Source of the DNA: a virus
Length of the DNA: 33,069 bases
Reading direction: 5' to 3' (one strand)
IMG/VR virus record: IMGVR_UViG_3300048928_000316
Coordinates: 1-33,069 of that record
Shown: one piece after another, positions 134-18,718 of the stretch
Position numbering within the stretch: position 1 is the stretch's first letter
Layout of the letters: every line of letters begins with the position of its first letter
Notes under the pieces: generated by a model
Seen by the model: only the letters and a program-made list of their open reading frames with translations
The model's database searches: none
Told to the model about the DNA's origin: nothing
Made by a program: the position numbers and the translations under genes

Positions 134-460
134 ATTGCCCGCGATTTATGATCGTTTCCGCAACTTTGAACATCGTTTCCGCAACTGCTGTCTTTTTGCT
201 GGACGAAACCTCTTCCTTACCGGCACAGACTGCGAAGATTTAAGGTGTTTTCAGGGGCCCCATGACAGCAATCCTGCAGTCGGAGGTGTGCCTAATTAAT
301 AATTCCTGTTGCTGTAGTCACATTGCCAGCATAAGCTCACGGAAAAATCGATGTGAGATTTTTGCGGTGTTGAAAAGTCAGGCCGCGCTACCGAGAGCTA
401 GGCTTGCAGTTAGGCCATATAGATCCTGCCAGAGAGCGGACATAAACAGGGACGTCAGTT
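134..460 (+). other. Non-coding segment between tRNA and first prophage gene (attL region)
   Basis: No convincing gene is present; the short open frames here overlap the tRNA or lack ribosome sites. It holds a 15-bp direct repeat (151-186) and a 7-bp inverted repeat AAAAATC/GATTTTT (343-349 and 357-363) nested in CTCAC/GTGAG arms. The ribosome site AGGGA (448-452) of the next gene is at its end. No clear -35/-10 pair was found. It most likely contains the left attachment site plus the control region of the two-gene operon at 461. Confidence 0.5.
151..186. repeat. 15-bp direct repeat, 21 bp apart, near attL
   Basis: ATCGTTTCCGCAACT occurs at 151-165 and again at 172-186, start to start 21 bp, which is two helical turns. 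No other copy was noticed in the window. Its place between tRNA-Cys and the prophage genes fits integrase arm-type binding sites, but a repressor site for the downstream operon or a remnant of a mobile-element end is equally possible. Confidence 0.6.
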
Positions 461-3931: not shown

Positions 3932-4000
3932 GTGCTGTATGCCTCGTTAGAGCCCGCCGCCGGACAGTTTGGTGAGAGGACGGTGGCGGGGTGTTGCGAT

Positions 4001-7822: not shown

Positions 7823-8455
7823 TTAATTTCCGCTTCGGTTCGCTCTGCGGCTGTCGATGAGCGCTGGAAGCGAATAGACATAGGTCAAAAAAGCTTCCGT
7901 AAACGTTACGGCGTCTTGAGCATCAGCTTCTGTGAACTGAATATCATCATGTGCGGCCATATTACGATCGAGGCGAATTTCTTCAGCCCAGTTCGCCATG
8001 TCCGTAGTGATTTTTCCGGTCTCAGCCAGGGTTTTCAGGCGCTTTTCCAGCTTCCAGGCTTGGTCCATCGATTTAGTCGAAAGGTCCAGAGTTTTTCCGC
8101 ACAAAAAAATCGCTGTCTCATATTTTTTTCGGTGAAGACTTTCAACGGCATCACGAAACGTTGCCGAGATCCTTGGAGGGCAGTGCAAAGGGACGTCAAT
8201 ATCTTGGAGGGCGGGATAATGCCCCTCAATAGATACTTGGCTTTGAATATCCAAATTGATGACTTTGTTAAAAAAAATTGGGTCATCAAGGCTATTGCGG
8301 TCGAGACCTTCGATTTTCATAACGGTTATCTCGCCGCAGTAGTTGCACTCTGCAGCAACTCTAACTCCCGCCAAGGTCAGACGTGCATAGCCAGTAAGCA
8401 TTACGCCCTCAGTCTGGCAATGAGAGCACTTCTGGCGTGTGTGGATAGTAATCAT
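7823..8455 (-). CDS. DUF4145-domain protein with N-terminal zinc ribbon
   Basis: 210 aa from the ATG at 8455. An N-terminal zinc ribbon is formed by Cys10/Cys13 and Cys37/Cys40 (CSHC, CNYC). The C-terminal part, FRDAVESLHRKKYETAIFLCGKTLDL ... WAEEIRLDRNMAAHDD ... FTEAFLTYVYSLPAL, is the DUF4145 helical domain with its conserved RN..AH motif near 166-171. DUF4145 also occurs fused to restriction and other defence proteins; here it stands alone. It is inverted relative to the surrounding early genes and AT-richer, so it behaves like an independently transcribed cargo gene. Its promoter would lie in the 37 bp before the primase start or inside that gene. Confidence 0.85.
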   Translation of the reverse strand: MITIHTRQKCSHCQTEGVMLTGYARLTLAGVRVAAECNYCGEITVMKIEGLDRNSLDDPIFFNKVINLDIQSQVSIEGHYPALQDIDVPLHCPPRISATFRDAVESLHRKKYETAIFLCGKTLDLSTKSMDQAWKLEKRLKTLAETGKITTDMANWAEEIRLDRNMAAHDDIQFTEADAQDAVTFTEAFLTYVYSLPALIDSRRANRSGN

Positions 8456-8492
8456 GGCAGCAAATATCCTTATCGACGCTCTGGGGTGGCAC

Positions 8493-11183
8493 ATGCTGAA
8501 TCAGCATAACTCCGCAAATCCTAGTCTATGGGCACGTAGATATATAGATGATTTTGGTCTTGCTCTTGTCCCAATTGACCCGGGCGAAAAGGCGCCGAAG
8601 GGCATGGGCTGGAACAAACCGGGCGGTTACATCACCGACCCTGTTGCCGCCGAAGCATTCTGGCAACGCAATCCAAGTCACAATCTGGGCGTAGTGCTCG
8701 GGCCCAGCCGTGTCTGCTCGTTGGACGTGGACGATGTGCAGTGGACGCGGTTTGTATTGTTCGACCAGATGGGCCTCGATCTGGATGCCATGGCGGTGGT
8801 CTATCCGACCATCGTGGGTAATCCGTCGCGTTTCCGCGTGCTGTTCAAAATGCCGGATGATATCGAGCTGACGCGCCACTCTCTCTCCTGGCCCAATGAG
8901 AAAGACCCTGATGGCTCGATTCACAAGGGGTTGATGGCTCGAGCCAAGGCCGCGAAAGAGCAGGGTGATACTGTCGGTGAGGAGGCAGCCAAAGCCGAGG
9001 CTGACGAATACAAGCGCTTCACGGTGTTTGAACTTCGTGCGGGCCTGGTACAGGACGTGTTCCCTCCATCGATTCACCCGGGCACAGGCAAGCCGTACAC
9101 CTGGCGCACCCCGCCGAATGCTGCTGATGGTCTGCCGGTGCTTACCAACGAGCTGCTGAACATTTGGCAGAATTGGGATGTGTTCAAGCGCAGCGCCGAG
9201 GGCGCGTGCCCTTGGGCGCCGAAACCGAAGAAGCTCGCCGCGAAACCCATCAAGCGCGCCCCACCCGCTGACGGTAAACCCTCGGTGATTGATGAGTTCA
9301 ACCGGTGCCACGATGTGGAAGAGCTGTTGCGTGCCCACGATTACATCAAGCGCGGTAACAAGTGGCTGTATCCGCACAGCAGCACCGGCTTGCCTGGTGT
9401 GACTGTCACCGACCGCAAGGTCTATTCGCACCACGGCGCGGATCCGCTGGCCAACGGTCACCAGAATGACGCGTTTGAGGTGTTTTGCCTGCTGGATCAC
9501 GATGGCGACCAGTCTAAGGCGGTCAAGGACGCAGCTCGGATGTTGGGTATGCAGCACGCGTCGCGCCCAGCCCCACAAGATCTTCCCCCGGCCCCATCGG
9601 CGGATGCCAGCGAGCAGGACTCCAGCGCGGCGCCCGGAGAAGCCGCTCCTGCTGCTGACGGGGGAGCGGGGGAGGTGCTGACCTACGAGCAGGTGCTGCG
9701 ACGTTACGTGCTGGTCGAGGGGACCACGCAAGTGTGGGATCTCGACAAGGCGCGGGTGATGAAGAAAACCGCGTTTGAGGCTCGCGTCGGCAAGCCATTG
9801 GCGAAACAGTGGGCAGATGACACCAGCAAAAAGCTTATCTCGGATGATAAGGTCAAGGAGATCGAGCAAGCGCGCAAGATGGCTGGTAAGAAGGGTGGTG
9901 CACTGAACCTGGAGCCGATTGAACGGTACGTGTACATCGACGGCACCAAGGACGTTTGGGACCGTGAAAAGAAGCGGCGGGTTGCCGAAGGCGCGGTCAA
10001 GATGGCCCTCGGTGATATGTACGGTATGTGGTTGAACAGCCCGGAGCGGCGCGTGGTCGACGTGGAGAACATCGTGTTCGACCCGACGATGACCAAGGAT
10101 CCCAACATTTACATCAATACGTTCGACGGGCTGCCCATGGAGCCGGCGCGCGATGATGCCGGGTGCGAGAACCTGCGGTGGTTGATTTCATTCCTGTGCA
10201 ACCACGACCAGTCGTCACGCGATTGGCTGGTGAAGTGGTTGGCGTACCCGTTGCAGCACCTGGGCGCGAAGATGGATACGGCTGTGCTGGCTCACTCCAC
10301 CATGGAGGGCTCGGGCAAAAGCCTTTTGTTCGCTGATGCGTTCGGTTTGCTATATGGGCAGTACGCGGCCACGGTCGGGCAGACTCAGCTCGAAAGCAAC
10401 TTCAACGCCTGGCAAAGCCGCAAGTTGTGGGCGGTGTTTGAAGAGGTCGTGAGCCGTGATCAGCGCTACAACCAAGTGGGCAAGATCAAACACCTCGTGA
10501 CCGGCAAGACGGTGCGCATGGAATCGAAGTTCATCAACGGTTGGGAGGAAGCCAACCACATGAACGCCGCGTTCCTCAGCAACGAGATTATGCCCTGGCC
10601 GATCGCGCCCAGTGACCGGCGAATGTTGGTGCTGTGGCCGATGGAGACACTTCCGGTCGAGCGCCAGAAGGCAGTGGGGCGAGAGCTGGAGAATGGAGGC
10701 GTCGCGGCGTTGTACGCGTGGTTGTTGTCCGTTGACCTGGGCGACTTCGACCAGCGCACCAGGCCGCCCAGCACTGATGCGCGTGAGCGTTTGGTGGCAC
10801 TGAGTCGGGCCAGCTGGCAGACTTTCCTGTTCCTCTGGCAATACGGCGAGCTTGGGCGTGATATGTGGGGCGCCTGTTTGTCCACCGACCTCTATGCGAT
10901 GTTCCTGGAGTGGTGCCACCGCAACAAAGAGCACGTGATGAGCCAGACGAAGTTCTCGTTGTTCATCAGCTCGGAGGTGGACAAGACCCGGGCAATTCCC
11001 TGGACCGACGGCAGCAACCGCAAGTTTGGGGCGTTCTTCTTTCCACGCGATGAGCAGGCTTCCCAGCCCCCATCACTCAGGTCAGCCGATCTGGGCAAGG
11101 CGGTAGTTGCTTGGCGGGCTGCGGCGCGCTTGGCGGGCTGGAACGTCGACAACTGGGACCACATCAAGGCGGCTGCAGCATGA
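8493..11183 (+). CDS. Primase/SF3 helicase (Prim-Pol N-terminus, DUF5906-like C-terminus)
   Basis: 896 aa from the ATG at 8493, which has GGGG closely upstream; starts at 8454 or 8439 are possible but would overlap the inverted DUF4145 gene. The N-terminal archaeo-eukaryotic primase fold shows PIDPGEKAPKG and the metal site CSLDVDDV near residues 74-81. A Pro/Ala-rich linker sits around residues 365-405. The C-terminal superfamily 3 helicase has Walker A MEGSGKS near residue 605, Walker B-like LWAVFEEV, and sensor-type ANHMNAAFLSNE. It would open and prime phage DNA in the cytoplasm. It lies next to the iteron array, which suggests it acts there. Confidence 0.88.
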   Translation: MLNQHNSANPSLWARRYIDDFGLALVPIDPGEKAPKGMGWNKPGGYITDPVAAEAFWQRNPSHNLGVVLGPSRVCSLDVDDVQWTRFVLFDQMGLDLDAMAVVYPTIVGNPSRFRVLFKMPDDIELTRHSLSWPNEKDPDGSIHKGLMARAKAAKEQGDTVGEEAAKAEADEYKRFTVFELRAGLVQDVFPPSIHPGTGKPYTWRTPPNAADGLPVLTNELLNIWQNWDVFKRSAEGACPWAPKPKKLAAKPIKRAPPADGKPSVIDEFNRCHDVEELLRAHDYIKRGNKWLYPHSSTGLPGVTVTDRKVYSHHGADPLANGHQNDAFEVFCLLDHDGDQSKAVKDAARMLGMQHASRPAPQDLPPAPSADASEQDSSAAPGEAAPAADGGAGEVLTYEQVLRRYVLVEGTTQVWDLDKARVMKKTAFEARVGKPLAKQWADDTSKKLISDDKVKEIEQARKMAGKKGGALNLEPIERYVYIDGTKDVWDREKKRRVAEGAVKMALGDMYGMWLNSPERRVVDVENIVFDPTMTKDPNIYINTFDGLPMEPARDDAGCENLRWLISFLCNHDQSSRDWLVKWLAYPLQHLGAKMDTAVLAHSTMEGSGKSLLFADAFGLLYGQYAATVGQTQLESNFNAWQSRKLWAVFEEVVSRDQRYNQVGKIKHLVTGKTVRMESKFINGWEEANHMNAAFLSNEIMPWPIAPSDRRMLVLWPMETLPVERQKAVGRELENGGVAALYAWLLSVDLGDFDQRTRPPSTDARERLVALSRASWQTFLFLWQYGELGRDMWGACLSTDLYAMFLEWCHRNKEHVMSQTKFSLFISSEVDKTRAIPWTDGSNRKFGAFFFPRDEQASQPPSLRSADLGKAVVAWRAAARLAGWNVDNWDHIKAAAA

Positions 11184-11197
11184 GTCCGACTAAAAGT

Positions 11198-11485
11198 GTG
11201 TTGGGTGTGTCGGGTGTGTGTTGGGTTGGTTTTCGATACCCCACACAATTTCAATCCTTCTATTTCGCGGCTTTCCGCCTTGTGTGTTGGGTGTGTTGGG
11301 TTTGGCGTCGCGCACGCGCATGGGCGATGTTATTTGAATCCATGGCAGCAAGATTTTTTTCTTATGCGAGAACCGTTAAACCCAACACACCCAACACACC
11401 CAACACATTTGATTTAAGGCTATTGAATTTAAAGGGTTTTGGGTGTGTTGGGTTTGTGTTGGGTATAGCGTTTTTTGTGTCGGGT
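11198..11485. repeat. Iteron array, 11 copies of GTGTYGGGT; candidate replication origin
   Basis: Plus-strand copies start at 11198, 11207, 11218, 11284, 11293, 11445, 11456 and 11477 (11207 and 11477 read GTGTCGGGT). Three tandem inverted copies (ACCCAACAC) start at 11380, 11389 and 11398. Some are head-to-tail with a 9-bp period. The outer groups pair with the central one: 11282-11303 is a perfect 22-bp inverted repeat of 11378-11399, and 11441-11455 pairs with 11378-11392. An AT-rich stretch (11406-11432) lies between. The array follows the primase gene and holds no believable gene. Confidence 0.85.
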
Positions 11486-11511
11486 TGGTTTTTGACCGGG
11501 GGAGCGGGGCG

Positions 11512-11994
11512 ATGATCGAAGAAATGGAAACTCTATTGAAGCATTGGGGCGAGCAAACGCGGCGCTGTGGCTCTGCCGGCGGTCTGGGCAGCCCAATGGC
11601 GACGATCATGGAGTGGGGTGGATGCGCGCCGCGTGGCACGCCTGGACCGCGGAGCCTTCTGGACGGCGGCGCTGGCATTGATGCCGTTGCGCAAGAAGTC
11701 GCGGCGGCTCTGGCTGAGGTGGGTCGCCAGGATGAGCGCGGGCAGATGCTGGAGCGTCTGGCGGTGCTGCGTTATACCGATGACTCGGCGCCGACGTGGT
11801 TGATGCAGCTGCACCTGGTTGGGTCCCAGTCCCGAGCGAAGCAGACCTACTATGACTGGGTGCATAGCCTGCACCTGCGCCTGTTACAGGTGTTGGCTGA
11901 TCGGTCTGGGGCTCGTAAGTGGCTTACCGCTGGTCAGGGCACTTTGCCTCAAAGTCTCCTCAAAGCTGCGTCAAAGTTGCGTCGAGTTAGTTAA
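11512..11994 (+). CDS. Antitermination Q-like protein (candidate)
   Basis: 160 aa from the ATG at 11512 behind a purine-rich GGGGGAGCGGGG; the longer frame reads through the iterons and is rejected. The start ETLLKHWGEQTRRCGSAGGLGSPMATIM, with a Trp, basic residues and a Gly-rich turn, and the C-terminal helix pair LERLAVLRYTDD ... QSRAKQTYYDWVHSLHLRLLQVL look like the short Q/DUF1133-type late regulators with a sigma-4-like HTH. Position supports this: last early gene, just before a terminator and the lysis genes. Without the family search the name is tentative; a different DNA-binding protein is possible. Confidence 0.55.
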   Translation: MIEEMETLLKHWGEQTRRCGSAGGLGSPMATIMEWGGCAPRGTPGPRSLLDGGAGIDAVAQEVAAALAEVGRQDERGQMLERLAVLRYTDDSAPTWLMQLHLVGSQSRAKQTYYDWVHSLHLRLLQVLADRSGARKWLTAGQGTLPQSLLKAASKLRRVS

Positions 11995-17777: not shown

Positions 17778-18718
17778 AAAACTACCTGAGAGCCTCCAGC
17801 CTGCTGTTCAACCAGCCGCTGTTGGTAATGCCTGATATGTTGGATCTGGGCGTTCGCTGGGCCAACCAGGTGATGAGCTTGAACATTGTCAACATCGGTG
17901 GGCAGGGCACCCCCGGCCTGTGGTCGGATGACGGAATGGACCGCATTGCCCAGCGCGAAGAAGAGCGCCGAACTGCAATCGCACGCACTGGTATCGAGGT
18001 GATTCCTGTCAGCGGCGTGCTGGTCAGTCGTGGCAGCCACATCGGTATGTGCGAAACGATGACCAGCTATGAACAGCTGCGTGGGCAAATTCGCAACGCG
18101 GTTGCTGACCCAATGGTCGAGCGGATCGTGCTCGACATCGACAGCCCAGGCGGTTCTGCCGTGGGAGCTTTTGAACTGGCGGCCGATATCCGCGCTATGG
18201 CCCAACAGAAGCCGATTACCGGCATCGTCAACTTCATGGCCTACAGCGGTGGCTATCTTCTCGGCTCAGCCTGTAGTGAGCTGGTGGTGAGTCAGACCAG
18301 TGGTGTCGGGTCCATCGGCGTCATTGCCAGCCACATGGACCGCTCCAAGATGGAGGAGGGCATGGGCGTCAAAGTGACCACTGTGTTTGCCGGTGCCCAC
18401 AAAAACGATCTCAGCCCTCACGAACCTTTGAGCGACCAGTCGCTCAAGTACCTCAACGACGTGGTGCAGGAGAGCTACCAGCTCTTCGTTAACGCCGTCG
18501 CCGAATACCGGGGGCTGTCCGCACAACAGGTCATGGCAACCGAGGCCGGGCTCTATCGCGGCCAGGCCGGCATTACTGCTGGGTTGGCAGACCGAATGCA
18601 GAGCCCGCAGCAGGCCGTTGATGATCTTTCCCATTCTGTCGCTGTGAGTCGGGCGAACCGGCCGGGCGGTCGCATCGCGGTTCGCGCCGCTGCACTGAAT
18701 CTTCAAACACTGAGCTGA
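17774..18718 (+). CDS. S49 (SppA/ClpP-fold) prohead maturation protease
   Basis: 314 aa. The S49 core includes IPVSGVLVSRG, the oxyanion region DIDSPGGSAVG (121-131), the nucleophile Ser158 in AYSGGYLL and the general base Lys210 in AGAHKNDLSP. The C-terminal helix has VVQESYQLFVNAVAEYRGLS. It probably cleaves the capsid and scaffold during prohead maturation. There is no signal peptide, unlike host SppA. It lies between portal and capsid genes and is followed by a terminator. Confidence 0.93.
   Translation: MKNYLRASSLLFNQPLLVMPDMLDLGVRWANQVMSLNIVNIGGQGTPGLWSDDGMDRIAQREEERRTAIARTGIEVIPVSGVLVSRGSHIGMCETMTSYEQLRGQIRNAVADPMVERIVLDIDSPGGSAVGAFELAADIRAMAQQKPITGIVNFMAYSGGYLLGSACSELVVSQTSGVGSIGVIASHMDRSKMEEGMGVKVTTVFAGAHKNDLSPHEPLSDQSLKYLNDVVQESYQLFVNAVAEYRGLSAQQVMATEAGLYRGQAGITAGLADRMQSPQQAVDDLSHSVAVSRANRPGGRIAVRAAALNLQTLS

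Follow-up and report, generated by a model that had tools for sequence, protein, structure and literature searches.

What is the dense cluster of nine-base-pair repeats that lies directly behind the primase gene of this virus, and which protein reads it? A sequence-only reading of the window, i.e., the whole stretch of DNA analysed here (33,069 nucleotides of a 33 kb IMG/VR virus record), had proposed a replication origin recognised by the primase/helicase or by a host factor or, alternatively, a fold-back switch in RNA. The window codes for an integrase, an S24-type repressor, Cro, CII, a Prim-Pol/DUF5906 primase and an HNH endonuclease, as well as for the small and large terminase subunits and other late-region ORFs, and its relatives are annotated as complete phage genomes. 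At its left end, a tRNA gene at positions 20-90 adjoins the phage genes and is a possible attachment site; it was also the only match in a search of the window for known RNA families. The primase-helicase gene (8439..11183, plus strand; PHROG 1156) encodes a Prim-Pol domain (PF09250, E 7e-18) fused to a DUF5906 helicase of the SF3/D5-like type (PF19263, E 7e-17), followed by a predicted C-terminal winged helix, and the protein matches the NrS-1 CTR, the SaPI5 primase-helicase and D5 in structure. Its start codon is uncertain, since the alignments of most relatives begin at residue 19. Within the 3′ end of this gene, at 11109-11140, GCTTGGCGGGCTG occurs in two exact 13-nt copies, 19 bp apart. 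The next gene (11512..11994, plus strand; PHROG 4300) codes for 160 amino acids with no assigned function, and occupies the slot of the Q-like antiterminators (PHROG 79) in Marinobacter-type relatives.

The 11 exact GTGTYGGGT copies first counted in 288 bp, eight on the plus strand and three on the minus strand, were all recovered at 11198-11485, and the array does lie directly after the primase-helicase gene, starting 14 bp past its stop. The whole window holds 12 exact copies, where 0.5 would be expected by chance and where order-1 Markov simulations (300 runs) never gave more than one in any 288 bp. The twelfth copy, at 18303, stands alone; like the two-copy matches found within genes of L247, L284, L317 and L320, it was rejected as an array. 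Two more iterons with one mismatch each are present at conserved positions (11238-11246, minus; 11436-11444, plus). Group 1, the outer left group (11198..11226, plus strand), has iterons at 11198, 11207 and 11218, i.e., at the conserved offsets 14, 23 and 34 from the primase stop, and is followed by the lone inverted iteron with one mismatch (GTGTGGGGT; 11238..11246, minus strand) at the conserved offset 54. Group 2, inner left (11284..11301, plus strand), consists of iterons at 11284 and 11293. It is followed by an alternating purine-pyrimidine GC tract, CGCGCACGCGCATG (11309..11322, strand-neutral), which recurs across the iteron classes, and by an AT-rich central spacer (11323..11373) that contains a T-run (11354-11360) and the box CTTATGCGAGAAC (11361-11373) and is a candidate melting region. 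Group 3, inner right (11380..11406, minus strand; iterons at 11380, 11389 and 11398), gives a plus-strand RNA that is free of G and rich in C (15 C and 0 G in 33 nt). Group 4, outer right (11436..11485, plus strand), comprises the mismatched iteron at 11436 and those at 11445, 11456 and 11477, so that groups 1-2 and groups 3-4 stand on either side of the spacer.

The AT-rich stretch that had been noticed inside the array could be placed more closely, AT being richest in the spacers between groups 2 and 3 and after group 3. Among the GTGTYGGGT representatives, the bins that separate group 2 from group 3 have an AT content of 0.57-0.62 as against 0.22 in the preceding GC tract, and to the right of group 3 it reaches 0.74. 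The tract after group 2 contains an alternating run of at least 12 nt in 93%/87.5% of representatives versus 2.5% in shuffles, and a YAYGCGNGA-like box follows the T-run and precedes group 3 in most iteron classes; Z-DNA formation, a melting boundary or a second protein site are candidate roles for the tract and the box. A search for promoters and terminators turned up nothing resembling a sigma-70 site and a single weak terminator-like one, below the number in shuffled sequences. The GC skew does not reverse at the array, which counts against an origin.

The primase served to collect relatives: viral contigs contributed 80 loci, and bacterial genomes, nearly all of them from Pseudomonas or Stutzerimonas, another 72. 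Six phage records were included as well, and a profile search supplied a further 80 loci. The sequence-only reading had suggested looking for repeat clusters beside Prim-Pol/DUF5906 primases, and had regarded the loss of the repeats from close relatives that keep the primase as evidence against an origin. An array was found after the primase in nearly all of about 230 relatives, and nearly all close relatives retain it. In nearly all of the approximately 150 near relatives, with primase identity down to about 65%, the iterons stand at fixed offsets from the primase stop: 14, 23 and 34 (plus), 54 (minus), 100 and 109 (plus), 196-226 (minus), 261-275 (plus) and 293-306 (plus). An alignment of 138 distinct sequences showed the iterons to be near invariant and the spacers to be divergent. 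The association also holds in reverse: an exact double iteron occurs in 117 viral stretches, and in 106 of these the primase lies at most 500 bp away. Of the 11 remaining stretches, four have chance pairs that fall within unrelated genes, in one a tandem repeat breaks the primase, and six end near the array. An automatic finder gave at least 5 (range 5 to 12.6) for all but one of 95 loci versus a mean of 3.3 for control stretches, and the array is present even in Moraxella phage Mcat2, at 34% identity. No array follows the related primases of the lytic phages M6, VP5 and ZP6, and the array thus belongs to one branch of the primase family. The sole distant relative without an array is L166, in which an open frame begins directly after the primase stop at 3958, and the origin of which must lie elsewhere. 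The primase frame of L331, read on the reverse complement, is broken about 1.2 kb ahead of the array, close to a short tandem repeat reading PDPTRPDPTRP; either the tract is phase-variable or the assembly is wrong there.

In distant relatives the geometry of the array is kept while the iteron word is changed. The loci L144, L125, L147 and L149 have GTGTCAGGT iterons, and L043 and L117 have mixed GTGYAGGGT iterons. The word is GGTTAGGGT in phage KT1, CTAGGGTT in Azotobacter and TGTGCAGGGT in Hahella and Marinobacter, and other distant relatives carry TATACAGGGT, GGCCTAGGG, GACCGGGT or the inverted ATTCCGACA. The loci from the profile search add words such as GGCAAGGGT, GCCGGAGGG, GCCGTGGG, TTACCGGAC and TTGCCGACC, and GTGTTGGGT and GTGCAGGGT are, with GTGTCAGGT, among the naturally occurring array types. 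The cleanest layout was seen in L178, L180 and L196, where the array is a mirror image with six iterons on each side of a central gap (3+3 / 3+3), the plus-strand iterons being spaced at 0, 11, 22 and 66, 74, 83 and the minus-strand iterons at 177, 186, 194 and 238, 250, 261. The window's array follows this mirror-image plan with the outer right group reversed: group 4 is on the plus strand in the window and on the minus strand in the symmetric form of other classes.

If the primase itself reads the iterons, which part of it does so? The Prim-Pol domain does not track the iteron word. In KT1, the Prim-Pol half is mostly 86-100% identical to that of the window, whereas its iterons differ and its C-terminus is divergent; conversely, L006, L136 and L147 have N-termini unrelated to that of the window and the same or nearly the same iteron. 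The KT1 locus (L008, Pseudomonas phage KT1) is by its composition a natural domain swap, with a window-like Prim-Pol half and a helicase and C-terminal half from another iteron class. In L006 (Pseudomonas phage Turba, 1459-4187), the primase is annotated as two neighbouring genes, one for the Prim-Pol part and one for the helicase part, and at several other loci unrelated N-terminal modules precede the same helicase.

The iteron switches are accompanied by changes in the predicted winged helix at the C-terminus of the primase. The L043 primase is 83% identical to that of the window overall, with switched iterons. It changes 19 of 312 columns that are conserved in 65 canonical representatives, and residues 825-870, which hold 26 of these columns, account for five of the changes (P 0.014). 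L043 and L117 have seven changes in common, four of them in the same interval (P 0.0011), and the corresponding test for the GTGTCAGGT group gave P 0.049, the clustering being modest and the interval having been picked after the alignment was viewed. Residue 841 is Leu in 65/65 canonical representatives, Glu in L043 and L117 (GTGYAGGGT) and Gly in 6/6 GTGTCAGGT loci, and residue 865 changes from Ala to Ile or Thr with the iteron switch. Because an all-pairs analysis of co-variation is unmatched for divergence (core identity 0.86 vs 0.77), only the comparisons of L043, L117, GTGTCAGGT, KT1 and L153 were used. Residues 834, 840, 841 (10959-10961) and 865 (11031-11033), which change together with the iteron sequence, are the candidate specificity residues. 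Residues 834, 841 and 865 of the predicted winged helix vary together with the iteron class; they are physically linked to the array, and since the C-terminal codons adjoin it, the co-variation could also reflect co-inheritance by recombination.

Residues 400-914 were modelled with AlphaFold2 (mean pLDDT 85), and the model contains the winged helix; the part of this predicted fold that is encoded at 10938..11042 (plus strand) comprises a recognition helix at residues 836-843 and a wing at 853-868. Residue 841 lies in a short helix at the place of the recognition helix, and next to it is the beta wing around 865. The best solved match of the model was the C-terminal region of the NrS-1 polymerase (Z 25.7, 361 residues; PDB 6k9c), which was also the only significant sequence match of the primase in the PDB; the SaPI5 primase-helicase scored lower in structure (Z 16.4), as did, among others, PriRep1 in a structure with double-stranded DNA (Z 14.1).

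The array also contains long inverted repeats, and these would allow another mechanism, in which single-stranded DNA (or RNA) folds into alternative hairpins and recognition depends on this structure and not on the iteron, as in pRN1. Both of the pairings that had been pointed out exist, one of 22 bp with the left flank (11282-11303 with 11378-11399) and one of 15 bp with the right flank (11378-11392 with 11441-11455), each of them perfect, and a longer, imperfect left pairing involves the outermost group (26 nt, 92%). Predicted folding is strong compared with shuffles (z -5.9 as DNA, -6.2 as RNA), the two sides are always complementary in the symmetric classes, and pRN1 ORF904, which shares the domain order, has its origin, a stem-loop of 100 bp, 3′ of the gene (PMC4234260). 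However, both the long inverted repeats and the strong folding arise because the iterons are inverted. The best pairing of the 22-nt inner arms has 20.05 matches within a phage versus 19.79 between phages, i.e., there is no excess of within-phage pairing of the kind expected of a compensatory, pRN1-type stem-loop, and the RNA switch proposed earlier finds no support in the same comparison. Perfect 22-bp pairing occurs in 12 of 75 representatives, and the T/C variation at iteron position 5 in the outer forward copies is unmatched in the reverse copies. Recognition of a folded structure is thought quite improbable.

Alternatively, the protein that binds the iterons could come from the host or be a different phage protein, or the iterons could have a function other than initiation, in partition, copy control or the control of transcription. 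Plasmid iterons do act in copy control and partition too, and the array is flanked by the primase gene on one side and, on the other, by a gene placed where a late regulator would be. A host factor is nevertheless unlikely, as the iterons switch between L043 and L041, close relatives whose hosts belong to the same genus; a regulatory role is countered by the finding of different iterons in front of a next gene of the same type, and no partition genes were recognised among the scanned genes. The mirror symmetry about the central spacer and the position after the primase fit initiation, and a role outside initiation, or a reader other than the primase, is held to be improbable.

A third possibility is that the array is part of a gene, the repeats encoding a repetitive hydrophobic protein of 111 amino acids. 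The primase ends in an ATGA overlap, the ATG of which opens a frame of 111 codons (11180..11515, plus strand) that runs through the entire array to a TGA that overlaps the next gene's start codon (ATG, 11512). This bridging frame is open across 100 codons in 166 of the 171 ATGA-bearing relatives of the GTGTYGGGT type (70 of 75 representatives), where about 2% would be expected by chance with the iterons fixed and the spacers shuffled. Of the two remaining forward frames, one is open in none of the 171 and the other in one. Mostly, the bridge stop directly overlaps the next start codon, lying at -4 relative to it in 96 of 168 cases, at -8 in 17 and at -1 in 9. Bridges in another frame, with ATGA at the end, were found in other classes (L173, L177, L178, L183, L186, L194, L198 and L204). 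Against a coding function, the spacer codons are substituted equally at positions 1, 2 and 3 (0.143/0.142/0.139) with a dN/dS of 0.89, compared with 0.08 for the primase end and 0.07 for the next gene, so that no purifying selection on the amino acids of the bridge was detected. Moreover, lineages read the inner iterons in all three frames, which means that indels moved the frame relative to the DNA motifs and were then compensated, and several distant classes have the array with no bridging frame. A coding function was dismissed on these grounds and is hardly credible. Repeats lying in a translated gene had been regarded beforehand as a sign against an origin; if the bridge is translated, they literally do lie in a translated frame, but as its amino acids are not under selection, the origin reading is unharmed.

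Because the frame is open with a dN/dS of about 0.9, selection appears to act against stops and not on the peptide, a conclusion that is well supported by the sequence comparisons. The likely role of the bridge is to pass ribosomes that leave the primase on to the next gene through termination-reinitiation, and so to keep the latter expressed. Rho favours C-rich, G-poor RNA such as the group 3 transcript, and the passage of ribosomes would shield this C-rich reverse-iteron mRNA from it. ATGA overlaps are a known setting of termination-reinitiation coupling (PMC6728339). Whether the bridge is kept open solely against stops and frameshifts, with ribosomes crossing the origin and reinitiating at the gene in the Q position, is judged to be an even call.

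Among known systems, the SaPI and P4 origins were compared with the array by description. In the origins of PICIs, as described in PMC7581432 (citing Ubeda et al. 2007) and PMC6092414, two sets of iterons flank an AT-rich region 3′ of the initiator gene, the initiator reads the iterons through its C-terminal domain, and the iterons differ between elements; a PICI rep-ori is able to replicate plasmids (PMC6092414). The window's array, with its putative origin role, resembles these in lying directly 3′ of the primase-helicase gene, at a start that is fixed across relatives. In contrast to SaPI/PICI, the window is a temperate phage with an integrase, a repressor, CII and terminase, and this gene set rules out a PICI satellite. 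It also differs in that its primase is a Prim-Pol fused to DUF5906, that it has 11-13 iterons in four groups, and that its array includes the alternating GC tract and is crossed by a stop-free frame. The likeness to P4 alpha is that of a single primase, helicase and origin-binding protein with repeated binding sites, although the sequence, geometry and position of the P4 ori/crr array appear to differ from those in the window. P4 alpha has a Toprim-type primase, unlike the Prim-Pol of the window (PMC4234260).

The protein is also like pRN1 ORF904, which likewise combines a Prim-Pol, an SF3 helicase and a winged helix within a single chain and has its origin directly 3′ of the gene; the pRN1 origin is a stem-loop with no iterons, whereas in the window's family the iterons are conserved and the pairing is uncompensated, and the authors of the pRN1 work put forward stem-loops, and not iterons, as the element used by proteins of this kind (PMC4234260). 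On the sequence comparisons, the window's element appears to work like the PICI origins and not like that of pRN1. We know of no origin for NrS-1. Its polymerase is the best structural match over helicase and tail (PMC7102993; PDB 6k9c), and its Tail domain has been described as novel (PMC7102993); tails of the NrS-1 type may be origin-reading domains.

It is highly probable that the array is the site at which this temperate Pseudomonas prophage begins to copy its genome, a SaPI/P4-style iteron origin to which its own primase-helicase binds. The comparative data and the analogy strongly favour such a primase-recognised origin, as the sequence-only reading had proposed for one of its alternatives: the geometry is fixed, the iterons switch with the predicted C-terminal winged helix, the array is found almost exclusively next to the primase, and SaPI/PICI origins lie 3′ of the rep gene. 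In the proposed mechanism, copies of the Prim-Pol/DUF5906 protein would dock on the 9-bp iterons via the C-terminal winged helix, and the iteron groups flanking the AT-rich spacer would assemble two SF3-type helicase hexamers, in keeping with the symmetric form, which has six iterons on either side. The spacer would then melt, the helicases would travel apart, and the attached Prim-Pol domain would lay down primers, leading to theta replication.

A non-exhaustive search of the open-licence literature found no description of a phage origin of this type. The putative origin is of a known kind in a new form, and the bridging frame across the array is new. If the proposal for this frame is true, late-gene control would be coupled to the primase transcript, helicase loading at the origin would feed back on the next gene, and the bridge would be a reading frame selected for translation and not for its product. 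It would offer a clear test case for open frames selected merely for the passage of ribosomes; frames that are free of stops and have no product would otherwise be annotated as hypothetical proteins or missed. With the origin itself, the rep-ori layout, which has been said to be unique to PICIs, would be extended to temperate phages, the many natural pairs of iteron and winged helix would make the specificity of the initiator directly testable, and a large group of temperate phages of Pseudomonas and other proteobacteria would gain an addressable replication origin.
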